Below are positions 430 to 777 of a DNA stretch of 64,000 bases, piece by piece. The notes below the pieces were generated by a model. The model saw only the letters and a program-made list of their open reading frames with translations. It was not told the origin of the DNA and searched no databases. Every line of letters begins with the position of its first letter. The stretch's first letter is position 1. The translations under genes were made by a program, and so were the position numbers. Source of the DNA: Sipunculus nudus. Its lineage: Eukaryota; Annelida; Sipuncula; Golfingiida; Sipunculidae. The stretch is taken from positions 2,494,019 to 2,558,018 of the forward strand of contig CM049306.1 in assembly GCA_026874595.1 (NCBI GenBank), given 5' to 3'.

Positions 430-566
430 CTTGCAGCATCATACAGCCCTAAGTCCGTGAAGAAATCAGCCAGCCCCTTTTGGAGCTGTACCAGCTCCTG
501 ATCAGACCCTGAGAAACTTCTGAGCTTGTCCAGGTAGACGGCCTCCACCTGACTGTAATCACCCAG
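430..566 (-). CDS. Internal exon of a TPR-like protein gene (partial)
   Basis: This is an internal exon of 137 nt, 45 codons plus 2 nt, entered in phase 0 and left in phase 2. The translation opens with LGDYSQ and then reads VEAVYLDKLRSF. In a TPR the pattern LGDY..A...Y...L marks the end of helix A and helix B, and here L1, G2, D3, Y4, Y11 and L15 fit. A second unit ends in DLGLYDAAR (residues 38-46), again LG.Y..A, with A33 and F35 in the helix before it. The two LG pairs are 38 residues apart, against 34 in classic TPRs and 42 in kinesin-light-chain types. TPR units form helical hairpins that mediate protein-protein contacts; the partner is unknown. The exon starts at CTG 566, after the TAG acceptor, because LGDYSQ completes the TPR motif. 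The GTG at 548 is not a start codon, since the frame is open upstream through CAG, AGT, TAC, GAT and GGT to that CTG. Codons are GC-rich compared with the flank. Only this exon is visible, so the gene cannot be named and a pseudogene remnant is not excluded. Confidence 0.72.
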
Positions 567-590
567 CTACAACGACAAATTGACTGTAAT
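567..590 (-). other. 3' splice site of the TPR exon, formed by the terminal array monomer
   Basis: On the minus strand a TGATTAC (592-586) is followed by the T-rich stretch ATTTGTCGTTG and then TAG (569-567), directly before exon base CTG 566. The A at 587 is a plausible branch point, 20 nt before the end of the AG. The pyrimidine tract is weak and interrupted by G. The element belongs fully to the tandem repeat, and almost identical copies lie every 29-32 bp upstream. A second AG, CAG at 551-549, is followed by GTGGAG and is also in phase 0; using it would drop the six residues LGDYSQ. I prefer the TAG because LGDY fits the TPR motif. No transcript evidence is available. Confidence 0.6.
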
Positions 591-596
591 CACCAA

Positions 597-777
597 GCTA
601 TAACAACAAATTGACTAATCACCAAGCTACAACAACAAATTGACTAATCACCCAGCTACAACAACAAATTGACCAATCACCCAGCTACAACGACAAACTG
701 ACTAATCACCAAGCTATAACAACAAATTGACTAATCACCCAGCTACAACAACAAATTGACAAATCACCCAGCTACAG
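597..777. repeat. Irregular 29-bp monomers next to the exon
   Basis: Six consecutive monomer junctions, at 613, 642, 671, 700, 729 and 758, are spaced exactly 29 bp apart. They read GACTAATC (twice with a substitution: GACCAATC, GACAAATC) where the rest of the array has GACTGTAATC, so two bases (GT) are missing. They also carry CAAATTGAC rather than CAAACTGAC. This edge zone is the most diverged part of the left array and separates the exon from the homogeneous interior. On the minus strand the missing bases change TGATTACAGTCAG to TGATTAGTCAA, altering the branch-point-like and donor-like motifs but leaving TAG in place. Confidence 0.85.

Follow-up and report, generated by a model that had tools for sequence, protein, structure and literature searches.

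We found that a 64-kb intron of an animal nephrocystin-3-like (NPHP3-like) gene is filled with about 2,070 assembled tandem copies of what is most likely its own exon start and 3' splice site, and that many other exon edges in the same gene, and some elsewhere in the genome, have been multiplied in the same way. The window, that is the whole stretch of 64,000 nucleotides that was analysed, corresponds to positions 2494019-2558018 of contig C1 in a 1.43-Gb assembly of 153 contigs (G000). In this window TRF reports a single array with a period of 31 bp, from 549 to 64000 (2045.8 copies), which continues for 732 bases (23.5 copies) past the window. We cut the array into 2046 monomers by wrap-around alignment and compared them to the adjacent exon, yielding the following features (a slash marks a splice boundary; exon ends were read by eye).

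430 to 566, minus strand: exon of an NPHP3-like gene (LGDYSQVEAVYLDKLRSFSGSDQELVQLQKGLADFFTDLGLYDAA plus two bases of the next codon), in an open frame, with donor AAG/GTCAGT at 430/429; the only match found in the genome.
549 to 566, minus strand: first 18 coding bases (LGDYSQ), shared by exon and satellite.
567 to 579, minus strand: intron 3' end TTTGTCGTTGTAG with the presumed functional acceptor TAG/CTG, inferred from a profile test and not from RNA.
549 to 64000, minus strand: 31-bp junction-derived satellite, 2046 monomers in the window, continuing to C1:2558750.
567 to 64000, minus strand: window part of the intron, whose donor CTG/GTATGT lies beyond the window at about C1:2558930, after the exon VDELPYLL...IKSWKL.

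Read on the minus strand, the terminal monomer at 579-549 is TTTGTCGTTGTAG/CTGGGTGATTACAGTCAG, a 13-nt intron end followed by 18 coding bases, and is followed directly by GTGGAGG, the rest of the exon. A local alignment of the exon edge to the repeat consensus stops after exactly 18 exonic bases (61 of 68 identical), confirming the initial annotation, which had noted that repeat homology runs 18 bases into the exon. Eight of the 2046 monomers are letter-identical to the terminal copy (the copy itself included), and the 18-base exon start is exact in 172 of 2046 and has at most 2 mismatches in 1619 of 2046. The further statement that every normal monomer repeats TAG and exon start is too strong, as TAG is kept in 1471 of 2046 monomers and an AG at that site in 1481, while 347 have TAA and 172 have ACA, so that the “thousands of look-alikes” of that annotation are about 1,480 sites with AG in the window. 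The monomers with ACA form a second class that lacks the acceptor and is interspersed with the main class. The array also shows a long-range order, with the best self-similarity at a lag of 327 monomers (about 10.1 kb), roughly in step with slow waves in GC skew.

Most monomers carry two further AGs (1909 and 1992 of 2046), one of which would give an exon starting at 548 (TCAG/GTG) in the same phase as TAG/CTG (566), so the sequence alone did not decide the exon start. To address this, we joined the exon to the preceding one, located beyond the window at positions 1050-913 of the locus L018 (L numbers denote extracted loci of the assembly) and ending in IKSWKL/GTATGT, which makes the intron about 64.3 kb long. 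The joined exon pair matches the Pfam NPHP3 TPR profile with 42.3 bits when LGDYSQ is present (88 residues on 87 columns), against 33.9 bits without it, 34.5 bits with only SQ, and 36.0-41.3 bits with ten control hexamers. Relatives thus have about six residues at this position; LGDYSQ is the best of the eleven hexamers tried, but only narrowly (the best control scores 41.3), so the profile supports the length more than the letters. We therefore consider that the exon most likely starts at 566 and that the array grew from coding sequence, although an exon starting at GTG 548 is disfavoured rather than excluded without RNA. Searches of NCBIfam gave nothing, Pfam gave nothing for the exon alone and only an unrelated weak match for a 55-residue piece, no relevant solved structure was found for the TPR region or for the exon alone, no paralogue of the exon pair without array was found at E-values up to 10, and a phage-collection search with the exon found nothing, as expected.

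To characterize the gene, we read by eye 16 exons on the minus strand between about C1:2478881 and 2637240, of which the one at L002 1531-1398 is uncertain. A concatenation of the other 15, incomplete and with some phases unresolved, matches DUF4062 (PF13271, 52.7 bits) and NACHT (28.3 bits), both above cut-off, as well as TPR_NPHP3 (PF24885, 46 bits; cut-off 100) and NPHP3_hel (PF24884, 26.1 bits; cut-off 27.9), both below cut-off. The DUF4062, NACHT, helical and TPR domains were found in order, but because two of the four stay below cut-off we refer to the gene only as NPHP3-like. A GC-rich block of about 5 kb at L002 2500-7700, downstream in the gene, is bounded by inverted copies of the same sequence (seen by eye) and looks like an inserted mobile element.

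We then searched the gene for tandem arrays of at least 5 copies with a unit of at least 17 bp, yielding a total of 19 arrays, nine of which contain an exon edge with its splice site (six acceptors and three donors, with 4 to 54 exonic bases in the repeat). Listed with unit length and number of exonic bases, these are the window array (31 bp, 18, acceptor); L018 1026-4565 (68 bp, 25, acceptor); L018 4935-6971 (53 bp, 32, acceptor; the alignment was anchored one copy upstream and gave 85, from which 53 was subtracted); L019 2916-5112 (68 bp, 39, donor); L019 6795-8771 (64 bp, 28, acceptor); L020 5786 to L021 7722 (61 bp, 54, donor; the true exon lies about 0.8 kb away, across an interruption that still holds part of a unit); L021 8875 to about L023 40 (40-41 bp, 4 in the common unit and 26 in the 105-mers near the exon, donor; its middle, 2598019-2620400, about 22 kb, was read at three 401-base probes only and its continuity there is assumed); L023 6839 to L024 1643 (36 bp, 18, acceptor; exon start read by eye from an open frame); and L003 4957-5827 (50 bp, 27, acceptor). 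In addition, L019 8878-9060 holds two copies, 98 bp apart and 97% identical over 68 bases, of a donor edge that is nearly all exon, belonging to the P-loop exon (GSGKSALIANWV...), which looks like an early stage of array birth. The ten remaining arrays show no exon edge, among them L019 97-2477 (33 bp, 72 copies), L023 3439-6083 (40 bp, 66 copies), L003 5866-7292 (33 bp, 43 copies; the same unit occurs again at L002 381-1031) and L020 3585-5700 (18 bp, 118 copies); the 95-bp array at L002 1545-2502 is ambiguous and was counted as not junction. Junction-derived arrays thus account for about 125 of 136 kb of array in the gene.

To assess whether this could arise by chance, we considered arrays of 50-bp unit seeded at random in the 26.9 kb of non-array sequence with 32 exon edges; 5% of such arrays would span an edge by at least 4 bases on each side, so that about 1 is expected; observing at least 9 of 20 (counting one array just outside the span) has a binomial P of about 2e-7, and 5e-6 for 70-bp units. 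This test is post hoc, and rests on exons called by eye and on arrays treated as independent. A mobile or dispersed satellite inserted beside exons was rejected because each junction array carries its own gene's exon edge, although genome-wide dispersal of the window monomer was not measured.

To look for the same architecture in other genes, we sampled the best-scoring exon matches, not chosen for repeats, from kinesin (24 of 126 matches), myosin (10 of 75) and CCT/Cpn60 (18 of 63), discarding 11 bacterial loci among the latter, which left 7, two of them apparently without introns in the coding part. Bacterial loci (L062-L071 and L076) lie on the small contigs C61, C62, C66, C72, C73, C74, C75, C89 and C99, with nine equally scoring full-length groEL matches and one broken one, and indicate a bacterium, associate or contaminant, whose closest relative among the 80 named records kept is 69% identical (Omnitrophota). 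The 41 eukaryotic loci (including two overlapping pairs) were searched for repeats of 24 bases or more, with up to about 120 bases at the end of some loci left off, and 15 were searched again at 18 bases over their full length. Four of the 41 hold junction repeats: kinesin L032 (acceptor, 57/61-bp unit, at least 12 copies), kinesin L043 (donor, two copies 109 bp apart, the second degenerate, 80% over 65 bases), myosin L059 (acceptor, about 80 bp, 7 copies, 25 exonic bases) and CCT L078 (acceptor, about 30 bp, about 5 copies counted by eye). Repeats of L028, L030, L034, L038, L044, L046, L054, L057 and L075 were read against the sequence and showed no clear exon edge, while families in L039, L047, L049, L058, L072, L073, L074 and L079, and most short two-copy families of the 18-base search, were not read against exons, so four is a floor. 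A muscle-myosin gene at C2:44848559-44854198 (minus strand) also shows several repeated small exon matches (model positions about 90-204), some inside an open frame of 2288 codons, possibly representing alternative exons or another repeat-expanded region.

For L032, L059 and L078 the profile match begins within a few bases of the exon's first base, and for the NPHP3-like exon VDELPYLL the repeated exonic bases likewise lie inside a profile match, so in these four cases they are old coding sequence; for L043 no listed match covers the exon edge. These observations bear on the alternative that the satellite came first and that the exon later captured its terminal 18 bases when the acceptor moved from TCAG/GTG (548) to TAG/CTG (566). 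Both acceptors are in phase, both AGs are present in most monomers (1481 and 1992 of 2046), and some control hexamers score almost as well as LGDYSQ, but the NPHP3 profile has columns for about six residues here and capture would have had to happen repeatedly with the right residues, making this scenario unlikely. An assembly artefact or a chance array edge at the exon appears very unlikely, even without read data: long satellites are hard to assemble, but junction repeats of 2, about 5, 7 and at least 12 copies occur in other genes with gene-specific units, and chance does not readily give 9 of 19.

We next asked whether decoy splice sites decay. The splice dinucleotide is kept in 52 of 53, 38 of 39 and 225 of 225 monomers of three other arrays (the last being the part of its array read in L022), compared to 1481 of 2046 in the window array, and selection against decoy sites is not supported as a general rule. 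This retention, together with the share of array sequence that is junction-derived, could suggest that the arrays are kept for a function, for example as a reservoir of back-up splice sites or as length and timing elements of the transcript. However, in the window array the G of the AG is among the less conserved positions, and in the three others 22 to 26 positions per unit (of 40 to 68) were less conserved than the splice bases, so the rest were as well kept. We consider a retained function improbable.

We propose, with high confidence, that a short tandem duplication once spanned the 3' splice junction of the NPHP3-like exon (13 intronic and 18 coding bases), in line with the tandem amplification of an intron-exon junction that the initial annotation had inferred, and that unequal exchange or replication slippage then enlarged the array, although the amplification steps themselves are inferred. 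Such a duplication is tolerated because the copy that abuts the full exon still gives the correct mRNA and the extra copies become intron. The spliceosome most likely still uses the terminal TAG at 567, a splicing behaviour that we infer without RNA. Decoy acceptors are not followed by a complete exon with its own donor, and decoy donors are not preceded by an acceptor and exon, so exon definition would silence them; joining internal copies to the exon in silico inserts 31-base units that bring in stop codons. One idea for why junction seeds dominate, also inferred, is that the exon copy is held by purifying selection and stays a permanent template for re-amplification, whereas purely intronic duplications drift apart and lose the homology that growth needs. 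More tentatively, it is possible that amplification of splice junctions is a main engine of intron growth in this lineage, with exon edges acting as permanent seeds from which locus-specific satellites of up to tens of kilobases are repeatedly grown into introns, on both acceptor and donor sides, across the genome. These arrays give a source for satellite DNA (exon edges) and a route of intron growth that is neutral to the protein, and they offer natural introns with over a thousand decoy acceptors or hundreds of decoy donors next to one real site, making the question of how the spliceosome picks the true site directly testable.

Long satellites also fill the gigantic introns of the Drosophila genes kl-3 and kl-5 (PMC6508621), for which we saw no mention of satellites built from the gene's own splice junctions. 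An earthworm metallothionein study (PMC12783039) describes intronic minisatellites and exon duplications but, in the parts consulted, no junction-spanning units. Intron gain by tandem duplication of AG/GT proto-splice sites (an idea of Rogers, as cited in PMC3087553) likewise involves internal tandem duplication that includes splice signals, whereas here we see enlargement of an intron from its edge and no new intron position was shown. The initial annotation was right that the array is unlike ordinary intronic minisatellites, but such repeats have been described as “mirages” in amphioxus (PMC3087553), with further examples in lancelet PGBD5 and TnC (PMC3902484), the only reported host group in the openly licensed literature that we searched. 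As in our arrays, tandem units of mirages span an exon-intron boundary at the 5' or the 3' side of an exon, many but not all units carry AG/GT, and the true exon carries the terminal copy; regular splicing and a possible role in intron gain are reported for them. The amphioxus examples have units of 10-160 bp, with 6 and 3 copies in two BflGb6 haplotypes and a duplicate for BflGb9. Here, one array has about 2,070 copies (64 kb), nine arrays occupy one gene, and the 1.43-Gb genome is, by inference only, unlikely to be that of amphioxus, whose genomes appear to be much smaller, which probably extends the phenomenon to another animal group at much larger scale.
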